Positions 19,765-32,451 of a DNA stretch of 64,000 bases are shown here, piece after piece. Position numbers and translations under genes: made by a program. Numbering within the stretch: the first letter of the stretch is position 1; the number at the start of each line of letters is the position of its first letter. Below the pieces are notes generated by a model, which ran no database searches, was not told the DNA's origin, and saw nothing but the letters and a program-made list of their open reading frames with translations. The DNA comes from Hydrogenophaga sp. GTDB taxonomy: Bacteria > Pseudomonadota > Gammaproteobacteria > Burkholderiales > Burkholderiaceae_C. The DNA is taken from positions 1-64,000 of the forward strand of contig NZ_JAHCKL010000022.1 of NCBI RefSeq assembly GCF_026125785.1. Reading direction: 5' to 3'.

Positions 19765-20640
19765 ATGTTGTTGTCAGCGCTGATCAGCGGCCTGGGCCTG
19801 GGCAGCATGTACGGGTTGATGGCCCTGGGCTTCTACGTGACCTATGCCGTCTCGGGCACGGTCAACTTTGCCCAGGGCAGCTCGATGATGCTGGGCGCCG
19901 TGCTGACCTTCACCTTTGCCCAGACGCTGGGCTGGCCGCCGGGACTGGCCATCCTGCTCGCGCTGGCGTTGTGCGCGCTCTACGGCCTGGTGGTCGAGGC
20001 GGTGGCGGTGCGGCCGTTCGCGCGCCGGGGTTCGGACGCCTGGCTGATGGCCACGGTGGCCCTGGGCATCGTGCTGGACAACCTCGTGCTCTTCACCTTC
20101 GGCAAGGAGCCGCGCAGCCTGCCCTCGCCGCTGGCGCAGACGCCGCTGGACCTGGGCGGCATTGGCCTGGGGCTGTACCCGCTGCAACTGCTGATCCCGG
20201 TTGTGGGCCTCACGCTGGCCGGCCTGCTGCATATGCTGTCGCGGCGCACGCGCTGGGGCACGGGCATGCTCGCGGTGGTGCAAAACCCTTCGGCCGCGCG
20301 GCTCATGGGCATACCCATTCGCCGCGCCATCGCGCTGGCGTTCGCGCTTTCGGCGCTGTTTGCCGGCATCGCGGGCGTGCTGATCGCGCCGCTGTTCAAT
20401 GTCGCCTCGGACATGGGCACGCTGTTCGGCCTCAAGGCGTTCGCCGTCGCCATCCTGGGCGGCATCACCAGTGCCTGGGGCGTGATGCTCGCGGGCCTGC
20501 TGTTCGGCATGATCGAGGCGCTGGTCACCAGCACGCTGGGCTCGGGCTACACCCAGATCATCACCTTTGGCTTGGTCATCGTGGCGCTGGCTGCGCGCCC
20601 CAACGGCCTGTTCGGCCGCGCGGAGGTGAAGAAGGTATGA
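19765..20640 (+). CDS. LivH-type ABC transporter permease
   Basis: A 291-residue inner-membrane permease with about eight hydrophobic helices. It starts MLLSALISGLGLGSMYGLMALG and has VNFAQGSSMMLGAV and the later KAFAVAILGGITSAWGVMLAGLLFGMIEAL [segment] typical of LivH. It is eight bases after the receptor gene and overlaps the fusion gene by ATGA (20637-20640), so all three are one translationally linked operon. Confidence 0.94.
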   Translation: MLLSALISGLGLGSMYGLMALGFYVTYAVSGTVNFAQGSSMMLGAVLTFTFAQTLGWPPGLAILLALALCALYGLVVEAVAVRPFARRGSDAWLMATVALGIVLDNLVLFTFGKEPRSLPSPLAQTPLDLGGIGLGLYPLQLLIPVVGLTLAGLLHMLSRRTRWGTGMLAVVQNPSAARLMGIPIRRAIALAFALSALFAGIAGVLIAPLFNVASDMGTLFGLKAFAVAILGGITSAWGVMLAGLLFGMIEALVTSTLGSGYTQIITFGLVIVALAARPNGLFGRAEVKKV

Positions 20641-23174
20641 ACCACCCCGCTCAACCTTCCCGCCTCTGGCTGGGCCTGGGCACGCCGGGCCAGCTCGCCA
20701 CGCTGGCGCTGCTGTTCGGCACGGGCGCCGTGCTGGCGCTCACCGTCAACCCCTACCACGTCTTCGTGCTGGCCAACGTCGCGCTGCTGGCGCTGGTGGG
20801 CGTGGGGCTGAACCTGCTCATGGGCCTGAGCGGGCAGGTCTCGTTCGGCCACGTGGGTTTCTACGCCATAGGCGCCTATGCCGTGGCCATCCTCACCGGC
20901 AAGGCCGGGCTGGACTTCTGGCTGGCCTGGCCGCTGGCCGCGCTGATGGCCGGCGCCATGGGCGCGCTGCTGGCGGTGCCAGCGCTGCGCGTGAAGGGCC
21001 CTTACCTGGCCATGATCACCATTGCTTTCGGCTTCATCGTGGAGCACGCCATCGTGGAGATGCGTGACCTGACCGGAGGACAGAACGGCATCATGGGCAT
21101 CGCCGCGCCCGCGCTGGGGCCGCTGGCTCAGGGGGAACGTGCCGTCGCGCTGCTGGCGTTGGCGTGCGTGGCGCTGGTGCTGGCAGGCTTTGCCTGGCTC
21201 TCGCGCGGCACCTGGGGCGCGGCCATGCGCGCGGTGCGCGACAGCGAGACCGCGGCCGAGTCGATCGGCCTGAACCCGCTGGCCATCAAGGTCGTGGCGT
21301 TCGCGCTGTCGGCGGCCTGCGCCGGGCTCGCCGGCGGCCTGTTCGCGCCGTTGTCGGGCTTTGTCACGCCGCACACCTTTGGCTTCGTGCAGTCCATCCT
21401 CTTCGTGCTGGTCGTCATGCTGGGTGGCGCGGGTTCGGTGGCGGGCCCTCTGGTGGGCGCCCTCATCGTCGGTCTGCTGCCCGAACTGCTTTCCAGCCTG
21501 GAGGAGTACCGCCTGCTGTTCTTCGGCGGCCTGTTGCTGGTGGTGCTGTGGGCCGCGCCCGATGGCGTGGCCGGTTTCATGCGGCGCTGGCTGGAACGCC
21601 TGCGGGGCCCTGCGCAGGCCGCACCCGGGTTGGCCCAGGCACCGGAAGGCTTCAGCCTGCCAGTGCGCGCGCGGCAGGCACTCGCGGCGCAGGGCCTGAC
21701 CATGCAGTTCGGCGGCGTGCGCGCCGTCGATACCCTGAACCTGCAGGCGAACAGCGCCGCCGTCACCAGCCTGATCGGTCCCAATGGCGCGGGCAAATCC
21801 ACGGCGCTCAATGTGCTGAGCGGCTACTACAAGCCCACTGCGGGAGGCTTCACGCTGGGAGGCCATGTGTTGACCGGTCAGGCCGCGATGCGGCTGGCGC
21901 GGCGGGGCATCGCGCGCAGCTACCAGACCTCGCAGCTCTTCGGCAGCCTCAGCGTGGAGGACAACGTGACCCTGGCGCTGGGGCGCGGACGCCTGGGTCC
22001 GCTGTTCGGTCGCGCGAGGCTGGGTTCGGCCGACGCGCGGGCACGGGCGCGTGCGTTGCTGGCCTGGTGCGGGTATGGCGGTTCACCCGAAGTCCGCGCG
22101 GCCGATCTGCCGCACGTGGACCGGCGGCTGGTGGAGATCGCGCGCGCGCTCGCGCTCGATCCGGAGGTGTTGCTGCTCGACGAACCGGCCGCCGGCCTTT
22201 CGCGCGAGGACAAGGCGGCGCTGGCCGCGCTGCTGCGCCGCATCGCCGACGCCGGGCTGGGCGTGCTGCTGGTGGAGCACGACATGGCGCTGGTGATGGG
22301 GATTTCAGACCACGTGGTGGTGCTGGACGCAGGCCAGTGGCTGGCCGCGGGCAGTGCGGCCCAGGTGCAGGCCGATCCGGCGGTGCAGCAGGCTTACCTG
22401 GGCAGCGCGCTGGACCCTCAGGCCGTGCCGCAGCGCGCGGCAGCGGCGCAGGGCCTGGCCGCGCAGGAGATGCTGGGTGTGGGCGAACTGGTTACCGGCT
22501 ACGGCGCCGAGCCGGTGTTGCACGGCATTTCGCTGCAGGTGCGGCGCGGCGAGGCGGTGGCGCTGCTGGGCGCCAACGGCGCGGGCAAGTCCACGCTGAT
22601 GCGCGCGCTCAGCGGGCTGCACCGGCCGGTGGGCGGTGGGGGCATTCACCTGGAAGGCGAGGACCTGACACAGGCCGGCACCGAAACCATCGTCGCGCGC
22701 GGCATGGTGCTGGTGCCCGAAGGCCGGCAGGTGTTCCCCGAACTGAGCGTGCTGGACAACATCCGCCTGGGCGCATTCCTGCAGCCCGCTCAGCGCGAGG
22801 CCCGGGTGGAGGAGATGCTGCAGCGTTTTCCACGCCTGCGCGAACGCCTCCACCAGCGCGCTGGCCTGCTCTCCGGGGGCGAGCAGCAGATGCTGGCGAT
22901 CGCGCGCGCGCTCATGTCGCGCCCGCGCATCCTGCTGCTGGACGAGCCTTCGCTGGGCCTGGCCCCCAAGGTGATCGGCGACCTGTTTGCCGCGCTCGAC
23001 CGGCTGCGCGGCGAGGGCATGACGCTGCTGCTGGTGGACCAGATGGCGGGACTGGCGCTGGCGCTGGCCGACCGCGCCTACGTCATGGAGAGCGGGCGCA
23101 TCGTGGCACAGGGCACGTCCGCCGACATCGCCGCCGATCCGGCGCTGGCGCGGGCCTACCTGGGCGGGCACTGA
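20637..23174 (+). CDS. fused LivM permease + LivG ATPase + LivF ATPase
   Basis: One 845-residue frame holds three ABC parts. Residues 1-320 form a LivM-type permease (GVGLNLLMGLSGQVSFGHVGFYAIGAY) [segment]. Residues 340-595 form a LivG-type ATPase with Walker A GPNGAGKST at 381-389 and Walker B LLLDEPAAGL. Residues 610-845 form a LivF-type ATPase with Walker A GANGAGKST at 645-653, signature LSGGEQ at 745-750 and LLLDEPSLGLAP. The first ATPase reads LPHVDRRLVEIARAL at 491 where LSGGQ/LSYGEQ is expected, so its signature motif is altered while its Walker motifs are intact. The two nucleotide sites should thus be unequal. No stop or frameshift interrupts the joins, so the fusion is real. Imports the ligand of the adjacent receptor. 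Confidence 0.94.
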   Translation: MNHPAQPSRLWLGLGTPGQLATLALLFGTGAVLALTVNPYHVFVLANVALLALVGVGLNLLMGLSGQVSFGHVGFYAIGAYAVAILTGKAGLDFWLAWPLAALMAGAMGALLAVPALRVKGPYLAMITIAFGFIVEHAIVEMRDLTGGQNGIMGIAAPALGPLAQGERAVALLALACVALVLAGFAWLSRGTWGAAMRAVRDSETAAESIGLNPLAIKVVAFALSAACAGLAGGLFAPLSGFVTPHTFGFVQSILFVLVVMLGGAGSVAGPLVGALIVGLLPELLSSLEEYRLLFFGGLLLVVLWAAPDGVAGFMRRWLERLRGPAQAAPGLAQAPEGFSLPVRARQALAAQGLTMQFGGVRAVDTLNLQANSAAVTSLIGPNGAGKSTALNVLSGYYKPTAGGFTLGGHVLTGQAAMRLARRGIARSYQTSQLFGSLSVEDNVTLALGRGRLGPLFGRARLGSADARARARALLAWCGYGGSPEVRAADLPHVDRRLVEIARALALDPEVLLLDEPAAGLSREDKAALAALLRRIADAGLGVLLVEHDMALVMGISDHVVVLDAGQWLAAGSAAQVQADPAVQQAYLGSALDPQAVPQRAAAAQGLAAQEMLGVGELVTGYGAEPVLHGISLQVRRGEAVALLGANGAGKSTLMRALSGLHRPVGGGGIHLEGEDLTQAGTETIVARGMVLVPEGRQVFPELSVLDNIRLGAFLQPAQREARVEEMLQRFPRLRERLHQRAGLLSGGEQQMLAIARALMSRPRILLLDEPSLGLAPKVIGDLFAALDRLRGEGMTLLLVDQMAGLALALADRAYVMESGRIVAQGTSADIAADPALARAYLGGH

Positions 23175-26195: not shown

Positions 26196-26864
26196 ATGGA
26201 TTACGTGTTTGACTTCGGCGTGGTGGCCGAGCACAGCCAGGAGCTGCTGCTGGGTTGCCTCAAGACATTGCAGCTCAGTGGGCTGTCCATCGTGCTGGCC
26301 CTGCTGCTCTCGCTGCTGCTGTCGCTGGGCCTGCGCTCGCGCTTCACCGCGCTGCACTGGCTGATCGTGGCCTTCATCGAGGTGGTGCGCAACACGCCCT
26401 TCCTGGTGCAGATCTTCGTGCTCTTCTTCGGCTTGCCGGTGCTGGGGATTCGCATGTCGCCCACGGTGGCGGCCGTGGTGGCCCTCACGCTCAACGGCGC
26501 CGCCTATGTCACGGAGATCATCCGCGGCGGCCTGGAGTCGATCGCCAAAGGGCAGTCGGAGGCGGGCCTGGCGCTGGGCCTGCGGCCGCTGCAGGTGTTC
26601 CGCTTCGTGATCCTCAAGCCGGCGCTGCGCGCGATCTACCCCTCGCTGGTGAGCCAGTTCATCTTCCTGATGCTGACCTCCAGCATCGTGTCCTCCATCA
26701 GCGCCGACGAGCTGACGCACGTGGCCGCCGTGCTGGAAGGGCGGACCTTCCGCAGTTTCGAAATCTATTTCGTGGTGGCGGGGCTGTACCTGCTCCTGTC
26801 CGCGCTGCTGTCGGCCGTGTTCGCGCTGATCCACCGGCTCTTCCTGTCCTACCCCACGCGCTGA
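26196..26864 (+). CDS. polar amino-acid-type ABC transporter permease
   Basis: A 222-residue HisMQ/GlnP-type permease: FIEVVRNTPFLVQIFVLFFGLPVL near residues 60-83 [segment] and the EAA loop IAKGQSEAGLALGLRPLQVFRFVILKPALR near 114-143 [segment]. It is the first gene of a nine-gene unit. A second permease follows after ten bases, so the pair forms a heterodimeric channel. Confidence 0.93.
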   Translation: MDYVFDFGVVAEHSQELLLGCLKTLQLSGLSIVLALLLSLLLSLGLRSRFTALHWLIVAFIEVVRNTPFLVQIFVLFFGLPVLGIRMSPTVAAVVALTLNGAAYVTEIIRGGLESIAKGQSEAGLALGLRPLQVFRFVILKPALRAIYPSLVSQFIFLMLTSSIVSSISADELTHVAAVLEGRTFRSFEIYFVVAGLYLLLSALLSAVFALIHRLFLSYPTR

Positions 26865-26874
26865 GCCGATCCCC

Positions 26875-27531
26875 ATGAACCATTTCGGACTTCCCGAGGC
26901 ACTGCTGCTGGCCAAAGGCCTGCAATGGACGGTGCTGCTCACGCTCACCGGTTTCATCGGCGGTGCGATCGGCGGCGTCGTGGTGGCGCTGTGCCGTGTC
27001 TCGCCACTGGCCGCGCTGCGCGTGTTCACCGCCGGCTTCATCGAGGTGTTCCGTGGCACGCCTCTGCTGCTGCAACTCTTCGTCGTTTTCTATGGTCTCG
27101 CGGTGCTGGGTTTCTCGCTCAGCGCGTGGTCTTCGGTGGCGATCTGCATGACGCTCAATGCCAGTGCATTCCTGGGCGAGATCTGGCGCGGATCCATCCA
27201 GGCGCTGCCGGCCGGCCAGAGCGAGGCGGCGCGCGCCCTGGGCCTGCGCTACCTGCCGCGCATGCGCTACGTGGTGATGCCCCAGGCGCTGAAGATTTCG
27301 CTGCCGGCCACCGTCGGCTTCCTGGTGCAACTGCTCAAGGGGACATCGCTGGCCAGCATCGTCGGCTTCGCCGAACTGATGCGCAGCGGCGCCATCGTCT
27401 CCAACGCCACGTTCAATCCGCTGTTCGTCTACAGCATCGTGGCGGCGCTGTACTTCATTTTGTGCTGGCCGCTGTCGCTCTACGGGCGGCACATGGAAAA
27501 GCGGCTGGCTGGTGCCCAACGCACGGGCTGA
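26875..27531 (+). CDS. polar amino-acid-type ABC transporter permease
   Basis: A 218-residue paralogue of the preceding permease: FIEVFRGTPLLLQLFVVFYGLAVL near 55-78 [segment] and EAA loop LPAGQSEAARALGLRYLPRMRYVVMPQALK near 110-139 [segment]. Both permeases have intact EAA loops, so both contact the ATPase encoded at 28412. Confidence 0.93.
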   Translation: MNHFGLPEALLLAKGLQWTVLLTLTGFIGGAIGGVVVALCRVSPLAALRVFTAGFIEVFRGTPLLLQLFVVFYGLAVLGFSLSAWSSVAICMTLNASAFLGEIWRGSIQALPAGQSEAARALGLRYLPRMRYVVMPQALKISLPATVGFLVQLLKGTSLASIVGFAELMRSGAIVSNATFNPLFVYSIVAALYFILCWPLSLYGRHMEKRLAGAQRTG

Positions 27532-27569
27532 ACCCGGTCCGGTCCGGACCATAACGAGGAGACACTTCC

Positions 27570-28397
27570 ATGGCATTTCTCAACCGTCGCACCCTGGTTC
27601 GCGCTCTGGCGCTCACCCTGGCGACCGCCGGCCTGGTCGGCGCAGCGCAGGCACAGTCGATCGACGACATCAAGAAGCGCGGCGTGCTGCGCGTGGGCAT
27701 CCTGGCGGACCTGCCGCCATGGGGCTTTGTCGGGCGTGACGGCAAGGCCGCCGGCTACGACGCCGACGTCGCCAACCTGCTCGGCAAGAAGCTGGGCGTG
27801 CCGGTGGAGTTCAGCGGCACCACCTCCGCTGCGCGCACCGCGCTGCTGATGACCGGCAAGGTCGACGTGCTGATCGCCACCGTGGGCATGTACCCCGACC
27901 GCGCCAAGGTGGTCCAGTTCTCCAAGCCCTACGGCACCCTGGGCATCACCGTGATCGGCAAGAAGTCCCTGCCGGTGAAGAGCATGGAGGACCTGGCCAA
28001 CTACCGTGTGGGTGTGTCGCGCTCGTCCATCATGGACAACGCCATCACCGCCGGCGCGCCCAAGAGCGCCACCATCCAGCGCTTCGACGACGAGGCCACG
28101 TCCATCCAGGCGCTGGTGTCCGGGCAGGTGGACCTCATCGGTGGCAATACCACCTACTTCCAGAACATCAACAAGGCGGTGCCCAACCACAGCTTCGAGC
28201 ACAAGTTCTTCATCACCCGCCAGTACATGGGCGTGGCGATGCGGCCCGGCCAGAAGCAGCTCAACGAGTACGTCAATGCCTTCGTCGACGAGATCAAGGC
28301 CAACGGCGAACTCAACGCGATCTACCGCAAGACCATCGGCGAAGACATGCCCGAGCTGCCGGAGAAGATCGACGGCGTTCCTTTCACCGTGCAGTAA
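27570..28397 (+). CDS. ABC transporter substrate-binding protein (SBP family 3)
   Basis: A 275-residue periplasmic receptor. Signal peptide of about 28 residues ([19 protein letters not shown]). The mature domain shows [22 protein letters not shown] and [20 protein letters not shown], the standard family 3 opening [segments]. Members bind polar amino acids and related acids. The ligand is not predictable from sequence; the catabolic neighbours suggest a cyclic or aromatic-derived acid. An AACGAGGAGA ribosome site precedes the ATG. Confidence 0.93.
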
Positions 28398-28411
28398 GCG
28401 GAGCCCGCAGC

Positions 28412-29226
<815 letters not shown>

Positions 29227-29227
<1 letters not shown>

Positions 29228-29673
29228 TGAACCGCCACGTCTACGTCCTCAACGGACCCAACCTCAACCTGCTCGGCGAGCGCGAGCCCCACATCTACGG
29301 CACCGAGACGCTGGACGCGATCTGCTCGCGCGTGCAGGCGCGTGCCGACCAGCTCGGCCTGACGATCGACTTCCGCCAGTCGAACCACGAGGGTGTGCTG
29401 ATCGACGCGGTCCACGAAGCCCGCAAGAAGGCCGCCGGCATCATCATCAACCCCGCCGGCCTGAGCTTCTATGCGGTCTCTTTGCTCAATGCCCTGGAGG
29501 CCTTCGACGGCGTGAAGATCGAGGTGCACCTGACCAACCGCGCCAAGCGCGAGGCGCATTACCACCACAGCCTGGTGTCTCTCACGGCCAATGGCATCGT
29601 CGAGGGCCTGGGCGGCGACGGCTACGTGCTCGCGGTCGAGGCCATGGCCATGAAGCTCGCGGCCAAGGCCTGA
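29227..29673 (+). CDS. type II 3-dehydroquinase-family protein with altered substrate pocket
   Basis: A 148-residue flavodoxin-like protein with family numbering preserved exactly. The catalytic residues known from mycobacterial and streptomycete enzymes are kept: Asn12, Arg19, Tyr24, Glu99, His101, Arg108 (LNGPNLNLLGEREPHIYG, VHLTNRAKRE). Asn75 is kept too. The substrate-binding His81, Asp88 and Arg112 are Phe81, Asn88 and Tyr112 here. So the chemistry may be retained (syn-type dehydration through an enolate) but on a substrate lacking the dehydroquinate carboxylate or hydroxyl pattern. It sits in a transport/OYE/NIPSNAP/cupin operon, not with shikimate genes. It may be annotated aroQ automatically, which would be misleading. 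Confidence 0.85.
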
Positions 29674-29676
29674 ACG

Positions 29677-30816
29677 ATGCCCGCTTTGTTCGATCCCGCG
29701 CAGGTGGGGGCTCTGCAGCTGGGCAGCCGCCTGGTGATGGCACCGATGACGCGCAACCGCGCGCCCGGTGCGCTGCCCACCGCCGACATGGCCACCTACT
29801 ACGGCCAGCGCGCCGGTGCGCGGGAAGGGGCTGCGCTGATCGTGAGCGAAGCGGTGGCCATCAGCCCGACCGCGCAGGGCTATTCGGACGTGCCGGGCCT
29901 CTGGTCGGACGCACAGGTGGCGGCCTGGCGGCCGGTGGTCCGGGCCGTGCATGCGCGCGGCGGACGCATCGTGGCGCAGCTTTGGCACGTGGGCCGTATC
30001 TCGCACACGCGTCTGCAGCCGCAGGGGCAGGCCCCGGTGGCGCCTTCGGCTATCACGGCCCAGGCGCGCACCTACCTGGTGGATGAGAACGGGCACGGCG
30101 GCTTCGTGGACACCTCGGCGCCGCGCGCGCTGAGCGAACCGGAGATCCTGGCCATCGTGCAGGACTACGCCCACGCGGCGGCCCGTGCGCGCGAGGCCGG
30201 TTTCGACGGCGTCGAGGTGCACGCGGCCAACGGCTACCTGATTGACCAGTTCCTGCGCAGCGGTGCCAACCACCGCACCGATGCCTGGGGTGGACCGGTG
30301 GCCAACCGGGTGCGTTTTCTCGCGTCGGTCACGCGTGCGGTGGTCGACCGCATCGATGCCGACCGCGTGGGCGTGCGCCTGTCGCCGGTCTCGCCCACCA
30401 ACGACGCGCACGACGACCGGCCGCAGACGCTGTTCGAGGCGGCGGTGCATGTGCTGGCGCCGCTGGGCCTGGCCTATGTGCACGTGGTCGAAGGCCAGGG
30501 CCGCGGCGCACGCGACCACCAGCAAGGTGAGAAGGACTTCGACTACCTGGCCCTGCGGGAGGCGTACCGGGCCGCGGGCGGCCGCGGCGCCTGGATGCTC
30601 AACAACGGCTACGACTTCGCCCTGGCGCAGGAGGCTGTGGCCCTGGGCCGGGCGGACCTGATCGCCGTTGGCCGACCCTTCATCGCCAACCCCGACCTCG
30701 CGCACCGCTGGCGGGCGGGCCTGCCGCTGGCCCAGGCCGACCCTTCCCAGTACTACGGCGGCGGCGCCGCCGGCTACACCGATTTCCCCCGCGCGCTGCC
30801 GTGCGCAGCGGGCTGA
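29677..30816 (+). CDS. Old Yellow Enzyme-family alkene reductase
   Basis: A 379-residue FMN-dependent TIM barrel: LVMAPMTRNRA at the N-terminus, QLWHVGRISH, EVHAANGYLIDQFLRSGANHRTDAWGG with the substrate-binding His182/Asn185 and proton-donor region Tyr187 [segment], and NNGYDFALAQEA plus GRADLIAVGRPFIANPDL for FMN phosphate. NemA/XenB-like enzymes reduce activated C=C bonds with NADPH. Three bases separate it from the dehydroquinase-like gene. A dehydration that creates an enone followed by reduction of that enone would make chemical sense for this pair. Confidence 0.94.
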   Translation: MPALFDPAQVGALQLGSRLVMAPMTRNRAPGALPTADMATYYGQRAGAREGAALIVSEAVAISPTAQGYSDVPGLWSDAQVAAWRPVVRAVHARGGRIVAQLWHVGRISHTRLQPQGQAPVAPSAITAQARTYLVDENGHGGFVDTSAPRALSEPEILAIVQDYAHAAARAREAGFDGVEVHAANGYLIDQFLRSGANHRTDAWGGPVANRVRFLASVTRAVVDRIDADRVGVRLSPVSPTNDAHDDRPQTLFEAAVHVLAPLGLAYVHVVEGQGRGARDHQQGEKDFDYLALREAYRAAGGRGAWMLNNGYDFALAQEAVALGRADLIAVGRPFIANPDLAHRWRAGLPLAQADPSQYYGGGAAGYTDFPRALPCAAG

Positions 30817-30846
30817 CCACCGTCCACCCGAATCCGAGAACACGCC

Positions 30847-31191
30847 ATGATCGTCGAGGAACGCATCTACACTCTTCACACCGAGGTCCAGCTCAAGGAC
30901 TACCTGCACATCTACGAGACCGAAGGCCTGGTCGTGCAGAAGCCCATCCTGGGTGGCTTCCTGGGGTACTTCCACACCGACATCGGCACCTTGAACCAGC
31001 TCGTGCACCTGTGGGCCTACCAGGACCTGGAGGACCGCCGCGTCCGGCGCGAGCGCCTGCATGAAAACGAACAGTGGCTGGGCTGCCTGCGCAAGATCCG
31101 GCCCATGATCAAGACCATGGAGAACCGCATCATGTACCCCACCTCGTTCTCGCCCCTGCGCACCATGCCGCTGGCCCTGCTGCAGGACTGA
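30847..31191 (+). CDS. NIPSNAP family protein
   Basis: A 114-residue dimeric alpha-beta barrel protein: EERIYTLHTEVQLKDYLHIYETEG at the N-terminus [segment], GGFLGYFHTDIGTLNQLVHLWAYQDLEDRRVRRERL in the middle [segment], where the HLWAYQDLEDR stretch is the family hallmark. Bacterial NIPSNAP proteins often sit in catabolic operons but have no settled biochemical role. Confidence 0.88.
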   Translation: MIVEERIYTLHTEVQLKDYLHIYETEGLVVQKPILGGFLGYFHTDIGTLNQLVHLWAYQDLEDRRVRRERLHENEQWLGCLRKIRPMIKTMENRIMYPTSFSPLRTMPLALLQD

Positions 31192-31224
31192 GGGCCGGCC
31201 CACACCACAAGGGAGACGCAAGGA

Positions 31225-32031
31225 ATGAGCAGCTTCGACAAGGCCCTGGGCATCTTCGACCTGTTCCGCGAAGGCAGCATCAGCGTGCATGTGGAAGACG
31301 TGGTGCAGTTGCTGGAGAGCTCGCGCGCCACGGCCTACCGCTACCTCGGCTCGCTCTGCGATGCCGGGCTGCTGTCTCCGACCTCGCGCGGCACCTACGT
31401 GCTGGGGCCCCGCGTGATCGAGCTCGACCGCCTCATGCGCATCAGCGACCCGCTGCTGACCGTCGGGCGCCAGGTGATGCAGGAGACCAGTGCGCGGCTG
31501 GGGCTGAACATGCTGTTGTCCAGCTACTACCGCGACAGCATCATGTGCGTGGACATCGCCTGGCCCGACCCCGCCATTCCGCCAAACTATGAGCGCGGCC
31601 GCCCGATGTCGCTGTTCCGTGGCGCCATGGCCAAGGTCATCCTGGCGCATCTCTCGCCCTACCAGTTGCGCAACGTGGCGCTGCACCATGCCGACGCGAT
31701 CCGCGAGGCGGGCCTGGGCGCCGACTGGCCTTCGTTCCGCGCCGAGATGTCCGCGCTGGCGCGCGAGGGCAGTTGCATCACCAACGCCGAGCTCATGCAG
31801 GGCTCGCTGGGTGTTTCCGCGCCGGTCTTCGACCCGGATCGCAAGATCCTGGGCAGCATCACCTTCGCCATTCCCGAGGCGCGTTTCGCCACCTTCGACC
31901 CGGCTTATCTGAGGGCGCAGATCGTCGAGGCTGCCCAGCGCATCACCGACCTCATCGCCGAAGAGGCCGGCATGCCATTTCCGCCGCCGCCGGACGAACC
32001 GGTCCCGGCCTCATCCGCATCCACCGTCTGA
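31225..32031 (+). CDS. IclR-family transcriptional regulator
   Basis: A 268-residue IclR protein with a shortened or divergent HTH (DVVQLLESSRATAYRYLGSLCDAGLL, about residues 25-50) [segment] and a full effector domain (LSSYYRDSIMCVDIAW, RGRPMSLFRGAMAKVILAHL, SCITNAELMQGSLGVSAPVF). It lies within the operon rather than divergent from it, between the NIPSNAP and cupin genes, so it probably autoregulates the whole unit through the AT-rich region near 26125. A GGGAG site precedes the start. Confidence 0.9.
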   Translation: MSSFDKALGIFDLFREGSISVHVEDVVQLLESSRATAYRYLGSLCDAGLLSPTSRGTYVLGPRVIELDRLMRISDPLLTVGRQVMQETSARLGLNMLLSSYYRDSIMCVDIAWPDPAIPPNYERGRPMSLFRGAMAKVILAHLSPYQLRNVALHHADAIREAGLGADWPSFRAEMSALAREGSCITNAELMQGSLGVSAPVFDPDRKILGSITFAIPEARFATFDPAYLRAQIVEAAQRITDLIAEEAGMPFPPPPDEPVPASSASTV

Positions 32032-32046
32032 CAGGAGACCCTTGCC

Positions 32047-32451
32047 ATGCTGACCGCCACCACCCCTTTCCTCGCCCACCAGGACCGGCTCGGTCCGCTG
32101 GACTCGCGCATCGTCGACGTCGAGTCGCTGCCCTGGCGCGCCACACCCACGCCCGGCGTGGACATCAAGGTGCTGGTGCAGGACGAGCGCACCGGCATGC
32201 TCACCGCCATGTTCCGCTGGGCACCGGGCAGCGTGCTGGGCCTGCACGAGCACATCGAGATCGAGCAGAGCTTCGTGCTCGAAGGTGAGTTCGAGGACGA
32301 CGATGGTGTCTACACCAAGGGCAACTTCGCCTGGCGCCCGCCGGGCCACCGCCACGTCGCGCGCTCGCCCAAGGGCGCCACGGTGCTGTGCTTCTTCCTC
32401 AAGCCGAACAAGTTCCTCGAAGGGCCGCTGGCGGGCACGGAACTCAAGTAG
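32047..32451 (+). CDS. cupin-domain protein (ChrR-like cupin)
   Basis: A 134-residue single cupin: WAPGSVLGLHEHIEIEQSFVLEGEFEDDDG holds the first motif with His/His/Glu metal ligands [segment], and GNFAWRPPGHRHVARSPKG holds the second with the fourth His. The fold fits small metal-dependent dioxygenases, such as dihydroxyacetophenone dioxygenase-like enzymes, and isomerases. It is the last gene of the ABC/aroQ-like operon and may cleave or isomerise an intermediate. It converges on argO nine bases later. Confidence 0.86.
   Translation: MLTATTPFLAHQDRLGPLDSRIVDVESLPWRATPTPGVDIKVLVQDERTGMLTAMFRWAPGSVLGLHEHIEIEQSFVLEGEFEDDDGVYTKGNFAWRPPGHRHVARSPKGATVLCFFLKPNKFLEGPLAGTELK

Follow-up and report, generated by a model that had tools for sequence, protein, structure and literature searches.

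The closest described relatives of the protein considered here are the type II dehydroquinases (AroQ; Pfam PF01220), such as the enzymes of C. glutamicum (8idr/8idu) and S. coelicolor (1d0i), with which it shares the fold and the residues N12, R19, Y24, N75, E99, H101 and R108. As described in excerpts of PMC6011038, the carboxylate of the substrate is bound by N75 and residues 102/103, the C5 hydroxyl by His81 and Arg112, and the C4 hydroxyl by Asp88 from the adjacent subunit, which also deprotonates Tyr24 and is essential for activity. PMC10772564 differs from this source on whether D88 is catalytic: six catalytic residues are given there without D88, which is counted as a substrate ligand. 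According to the same paper, the H81A and R112A changes each leave the C. glutamicum enzyme without detectable activity, the enzyme tolerates S103T or I102L as a single change, position 105 is close to the 5-hydroxyl of the substrate, and the variable positions named from 750 sequences do not include H81, D88 or R112. Further background comes from a kinetic survey that lists 35 type II enzymes (PMC4314829) and from the M. tuberculosis enzyme, which was engineered to carry D88N and crystallised with an inhibitor according to the title of entry 4v0s.

Two other known systems are relevant. Quinate/shikimate catabolic clusters contain shikimate dehydrogenase (SDH), QuiC and pca genes, and relatives of our protein sit in clusters that look like them. 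In addition, a transporter-linked branch of AroQ homologues carries Phe81, Tyr112 and Lys91; an example is WP_012555313.1 of Rhizobium leguminosarum WSM2304, annotated as type II 3-dehydroquinate dehydratase. Models label the proteins of this broad branch as dehydroquinate dehydratase; both C5-hydroxyl ligands, essential in a characterised enzyme, are missing from them, and their genes usually stand beside uptake transporters. If type II dehydroquinases manage without these ligands, the structure-function rules for a drug target would change; alternatively, quinate-like compounds may be broken down by a route that has so far gone unrecognised.

The window, a stretch of 64,000 nucleotides from Hydrogenophaga sp., encodes a protein that we tentatively read, at slightly less than an even chance, as a diverged member of this probably catabolic branch, likely to dehydrate a dehydroquinate analogue altered at C4/C5. 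The stronger story is that of the branch itself, with its transporter-linked “AroQ” proteins devoid of C5 ligands; in the window copy, Asp88 has in addition been lost naturally, together with a set of local changes.

The AroQ-like protein and its operon

The operon occupies positions 26196-32451 of the window, all on the forward strand. It begins with two polar-amino-acid-type ABC permeases (26196..26864 and 26875..27531; Pfam BPD_transp_1), a periplasmic solute-binding protein (27570..28397; Pfam SBP_bac_3) and an ABC transporter ATPase (28412..29227). The stop codon of the ATPase gene shares one base with the start of the AroQ-like gene (29227..29673), and three bases after the latter starts the gene of an Old-yellow-enzyme-type flavin ene-reductase (OYE; 29677..30816). 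A NIPSNAP protein (30847..31191; Pfam), an IclR-family regulator (31225..32031; NCBIfam and Pfam) and a ChrR-like cupin (32047..32451; Pfam Cupin_7) follow. The gene order agrees with the original prediction, which placed the AroQ-like gene outside a shikimate operon, with transporter, OYE and cupin genes. Profile searches and neighbour comparison found no SDH, Gfo or QuiC genes in the operon, which also differs from quinate/shikimate catabolic clusters in having no pca genes. Upstream, a long open frame (20637-23174, 845 aa) apparently encodes a branched-chain ABC permease with two tandem ATPase domains, as judged by eye from its translation.

The AroQ-like reading frame is open and clean, with a product of 148 aa. 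It matches DHquinase_II (PF01220) with 162.3 bits (cut-off 23.3) and passes three of the five NCBIfam AroQ models, NF003806 (181 vs 171), NF003807 and NF003805, but falls below the cut-offs of NF003804 and of the aroQ equivalog TIGR01088 (144.8 vs 169.85). Its predicted structure (pLDDT 94.7) gives Foldseek query TM-scores of 0.92-0.95 for the ten best rows, which are solved dehydroquinases. Alignment with the S. coelicolor enzyme contains single-residue gaps; that with the C. glutamicum enzyme 8idr is free of gaps over residues 5-141, so type II numbering is sound, as had been proposed together with the homology.

The alignment confirms that N12, R19, Y24, N75, E99, H101 and R108 are kept and that residues 81, 88 and 112 are Phe, Asn and Tyr. 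Hence, unlike the characterised enzymes (8idr/8idu, 1d0i), the window AroQ has no His81, Asp88 or Arg112, and it has an arginine at position 105, near the 5-hydroxyl. Leu102 and Thr103 occupy the carboxylate site. Positions 81, 88 and 112 had been predicted to hold the carboxylate and the hydroxyls of the substrate. By the PMC6011038 excerpts this is right for the hydroxyls, 81 and 112 facing C5 and 88 from the neighbouring subunit facing C4, and wrong for the carboxylate, which is left to N75 and residues 102/103. The same source overturns the description of the catalytic residues as intact, because D88N removes the base reported to be essential for Tyr24. Judging by its residues, then, the protein still has the carboxylate site and the machinery for elimination, but the C5 ligands are gone, as is the base named by PMC6011038. 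The joint loss of His81 and Arg112 matters because either alanine change alone abolishes detectable activity in the C. glutamicum enzyme. As foreseen, annotation as AroQ hides all this, the model name being type II 3-dehydroquinate dehydratase.

A transporter-linked branch carrying Phe81, Tyr112 and Lys91

A GTDB search returned at least 588 confirmed relatives, of which the best 80 loci were read for residues. Among these 80, the 81/88/112 combination is HDR in 57, FDY in 15, FDH in four, SDR in two and TDR in two; D88 is thus present in 80/80, and F81 with Y/H112 in 19/80. We then considered an alignment of 88 rows, picked to cover variants and rich in F81 (it took 22 of the 61 non-F81 loci of the GTDB set). 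In this enriched set, F81 with Y/H112 is common to 46 rows, the window included. The 45 other F81 rows all have D88, K91 and H106, with Y112 in 40 and H112 in five, and every one of the 42 non-F81 rows combines D88 with R112. Since F81, Y/H112 and K91 vary together in the 88 rows, we take F81/Y112/K91 as a branch signature. Phe81 and Tyr112 are the branch marks that the window AroQ carries; among the matches listed, its identity to the branch is 48-65%. A reading of F/N/Y as one event and a unique triad therefore does not hold: F81/Y112 is branch-wide and, of the three residues, only Asn88 was seen in the window alone.

F81 rows come mostly from Alpha- and Betaproteobacteria, one named row being a Pseudomonas (L091). 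Seven further close relatives, read by eye, comprise six with F81/D88/Y112 and one with H81/D88/R112. The F81 relative from WSM2304 scores 168.8 with TIGR01088, slightly under the 169.85 cut-off, and an R112-type copy in locus L134 passes with 188.4. A search of the open-licence literature found no study of the F81/Y112 branch; the branch has no name and the search wording was not specific to it. Other variants were seen on the way. In L018 and L022 (matches 1501-1914 and 1501-1920), AroQ homologues have Tyr81, and Asp replaces the catalytic Arg19 by alignment. An AroQ branch in the family of the window organism (L020, L023, L025-L027 and L029-L032), with a LHGPNLNLFGRREP-type start, combines Gln81 with K91 on a long tree branch.

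A tree was built from the 88 rows and 135 columns, with columns 81, 88, 91 and 112 left out, by a quick method that gave many open forks and long-branch warnings. With the signature columns left out in this way, the window groups with 16 other F81 rows, and this group of 17 (SH-aLRT 86, not starred) holds the ABC-linked rows. Closest to the window, at 62-65% identity, are G162, from the same family, and a Rhodoferax MAG. F81 does not form one clade in the free tree, where the label needs four changes; a single clade of all 46 F81 rows is nevertheless not rejected (p-AU 0.597), and its likelihood is 4.0 higher than that of the free tree.

Neighbourhoods were compared at 44 F81 loci by tblastn (E 1e-6) within 9 kb; several loci end at contig ends, L059 and L191 lie on one contig, and L035 and L054 belong to one genome. 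An uptake transporter adjoins 36 of the 44, an ABC transporter of the window's kind in 15 and a TRAP transporter in 21, and the remaining eight show neither type. In L091 and L114, Pfam finds a sugar/MFS-type transporter gene nearby. Thirteen F81 relatives have both permeases (50-67% identical to the first one of the window and 59-64% to the second) and the solute-binding protein (45-61%). Other neighbours are SDH-like (23 loci), QuiC-like (16), Gfo/Idh (14) and pca-like (7) genes, and a second AroQ (2). In the annotated examples Rhizobium leguminosarum WSM2304 and Rhizobium sp. WSM4643, a single stretch combines AroQ and transporter genes with QuiC-like, Gfo, SDH and pca genes. Such SDH-like, QuiC-like and pca neighbours point to catabolism of the quinate/shikimate type. 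The scored SDH- and QuiC-like proteins are below the NCBIfam equivalog cut-offs, so this assignment stays a presumptive one, and a parallel route for a related compound would fit equally well.

These neighbours also bear on a less probable reading, to which we give roughly half the weight of an even chance. The window AroQ would then be an ordinary catabolic dehydroquinate dehydratase, with F81/Y112 serving quinate breakdown, that supplies an SDH/QuiC-like cluster elsewhere in the genome. Besides the counts of SDH-, QuiC- and pca-like neighbours, the genome itself lends it some weight. On contig C12, QuiC-like genes accompany an SDH-like gene that shares 66% identity with its Rhizobium counterpart, and PF01220 has no match on that contig. 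In the whole assembly, which is about 94% complete, only two PF01220 matches were found, in the window and on contig C45, and no type I dehydroquinase. However, the inactive H81A and R112A variants of the C. glutamicum enzyme and the essential role reported for D88 by PMC6011038 argue against an ordinary enzyme, as does an operon devoid of SDH, Gfo and QuiC genes. In two of the 44 loci, moreover, from Bosea thiooxidans and Rhizobium anhuiense (L070:6331 and 10745; L134:9001 and 13726), an F81/Y112 and an R112-type AroQ are both present in one QuiC/SDH-like cluster, which suggests different jobs for the two.

The copy on C45 is a canonical AroQ with H81/D88/R112, adjoining a shikimate-dehydrogenase homologue. 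A second, canonical aroQ had been looked for following the original prediction, and its presence would leave the window AroQ free to change.

The genome has five SDH-like matches spanning most of the query. The C12 cluster (L164; C12:110000-129900) holds two SDH-like genes and split QuiC-like genes and no AroQ; inspection by eye also suggests transporter genes of the tripartite-tricarboxylate type and a pair of IclR-like regulators there.

Changes peculiar to the window

Asparagine at position 88 is found in the window alone, the 87 other aligned rows having Asp88. Glu91 and Arg105 are also confined to the window among the 88 rows, and Ala106 is shared with 10 non-F81 rows and with no other F81 row. 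Relative to the branch, the window AroQ therefore differs by D88N, K91E, I/V105R and H106A. Across the 45 F81 rows other than the window, 36 columns are conserved at 97% or more; the window departs from three of these (D88, K91, H106) and keeps 33, and no other row departs from more than one. To the extent that the cited papers locate them, the changed residues 88, 91, 105 and 106 are at or near the C4/C5 side of the pocket: 88 and 105 are located by the papers, 91 and 106 by closeness in sequence or helix, residues 88 and 91 sharing one helix (84-92) in the predicted structure. The aligned residues look more like local remodelling than general decay, although this concerns three columns in a single sequence.

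Relatives with N88 were sought, and none was seen among the loci read. These were 80 from GTDB (the best 80 of at least 588 confirmed relatives), 30 from the family and the own genome (32 if two copies of the window gene are counted; of the 200 genomes searched, 188 had a match), nine from the genus, five from plasmids and seven late additions. At E 1e-48, a search for relatives in 399 genomes of the order returned the own genome only. Within Hydrogenophaga, 21 of 66 other genomes have an AroQ match (E 1e-36), and the nine of these 21 matches that were read all show F81/D88/Y112; the two genus loci whose surroundings were compared (L191 and L192) have TRAP genes nearby. By these samples, the window copy differs from the usual one of its genus.

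Might Asn88 be a sequencing or assembly error in a normal F81/D88/Y112 enzyme? It comes from one contig of one assembly, and no second N88 sequence turned up among the relatives read. We nevertheless regard an error as very improbable, given the clean reading frame, the nearby Glu91 and Arg105 seen in the window only and an Ala106 that no other F81 row has. Improbable too, to a lesser degree, is a dehydroquinase with little or no catalytic activity, acting as a ligand binder or left as a remnant after rewiring of the operon. Asparagine where 87/87 other rows have Asp would suit such a protein, and so would the M. tuberculosis D88N mutant crystallised with an inhibitor, as the title of 4v0s has it. 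Conservation argues the other way, with 33 of 36 constant F81 columns kept together with N12, R19, Y24, N75, E99, H101 and R108, and the gene still shares one base with the ATPase gene. Likewise, AroQ is 62-65% identical to its two nearest relatives, and the transporter subunits encoded at those loci are conserved to a similar extent (59-74%), so there is no sign of faster decay. As a natural D88N version, the window AroQ offers a direct test of whether Asp88 is indispensable.

Possible substrate and neighbouring genes

Under the preferred reading, of a diverged catabolic enzyme acting on a dehydroquinate analogue, the ABC transporter would most likely import a quinate-like hydroaromatic acid, which an enzyme encoded outside the operon would oxidise to the 3-keto form. 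The window AroQ has the residues Tyr24/Arg19 and His101/Glu99, with which it could remove the C1 hydroxyl by the enolate route. The whole branch has exchanged the C5-hydroxyl ligands His81/Arg112 for Phe81 and Tyr/His112, and in the line of the window the C4/C5 side is altered again by the changes described above. In this line, Gfo/shikimate-dehydrogenase/QuiC-type genes, found at branch loci, are absent, and OYE, NIPSNAP, IclR and cupin genes stand in their place, whereas the transporter is of the type seen in an ABC-linked subgroup of the branch. The C4/C5-side changes and the replaced neighbours together suggest a pocket that has shifted away from dehydroquinate. The compound dehydrated would then probably be an analogue of dehydroquinate with changes at C4/C5, and OYE may act on the resulting enone. 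A retained dehydratase chemistry with a changed substrate had been predicted. The changed hydroxyl side of the pocket is borne out by the alignment, the change of substrate stays presumptive, and the idea of an unchanged base is not sustained. Several points count against the preferred reading. Some relatives have dehydrogenase, QuiC-like and pca genes in a cluster whose only AroQ found is of the F81 type, and there one would expect plain dehydroquinate as substrate. D88N may simply disable the enzyme. The scores of SDH- and QuiC-like neighbours under the equivalog cut-offs make even the pathway of the branch presumptive, 8/44 F81 loci show neither transporter type, and the tree, with its 135 columns for 88 rows and many open forks, does not by itself unite the F81 rows.

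Among solved chains, the nearest to the window OYE is GTN reductase, followed by morphinone reductase. Reduction, or aromatisation, by OYE of an enone, the kind of product made by a dehydroquinase, would be chemically sensible. There is also a bolder version of the pathway, which we consider doubtful. The active-site acid would have moved by one helical turn (Asp88 to Glu91), Arg105 would replace the lost Arg112, and AroQ and OYE would act as a pair, by dehydration and ene-reduction (or aromatisation), on an imported analogue of dehydroquinate with changes at C4/C5, amounting to ring deoxygenation. No description of such a route by an AroQ/OYE pair was found in the literature searched.

The expectation that proteins with the triad would cluster with OYE/NIPSNAP neighbours was not confirmed. 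In the 9 kb around the 44 F81 loci, tblastn found no NIPSNAP and no cupin, and a single weak OYE match (28%). Among solved chains, the window NIPSNAP matches only those without a stated function, and the window cupin only the ChrR anti-sigma cupin. No NIPSNAP above 50% identity was found outside the own genome in 399 genomes of the family (E 1e-28). AroQ was absent by tblastn from five plasmid stretches around NIPSNAP or cupin relatives, and three further Azospirillum stretches have no AroQ annotation.

Some of these plasmid surroundings are worth describing. The nearest plasmid NIPSNAP (72% identical), on plasmid p3 of Azospirillum argentinense (L147, L176), lies beside Gfo and flavin oxidoreductase genes, this Gfo sharing 47% identity with its counterpart in the Rhizobium cluster. 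About 12 kb downstream are 3-hydroxybenzoate and gentisate genes; the Hydrogenophaga genome itself has a gentisate-dioxygenase-like match, below cut-off. Taken together, the plasmid NIPSNAP and cupin surroundings hint at hydroaromatic acid breakdown. The nearest plasmid cupin (60% identical), on pmega_1 of Rhodococcus ruber (L148:9001-10537), stands immediately before a gene of the OYE type, which shares 34% identity with the window OYE, in a stretch with no AroQ match.
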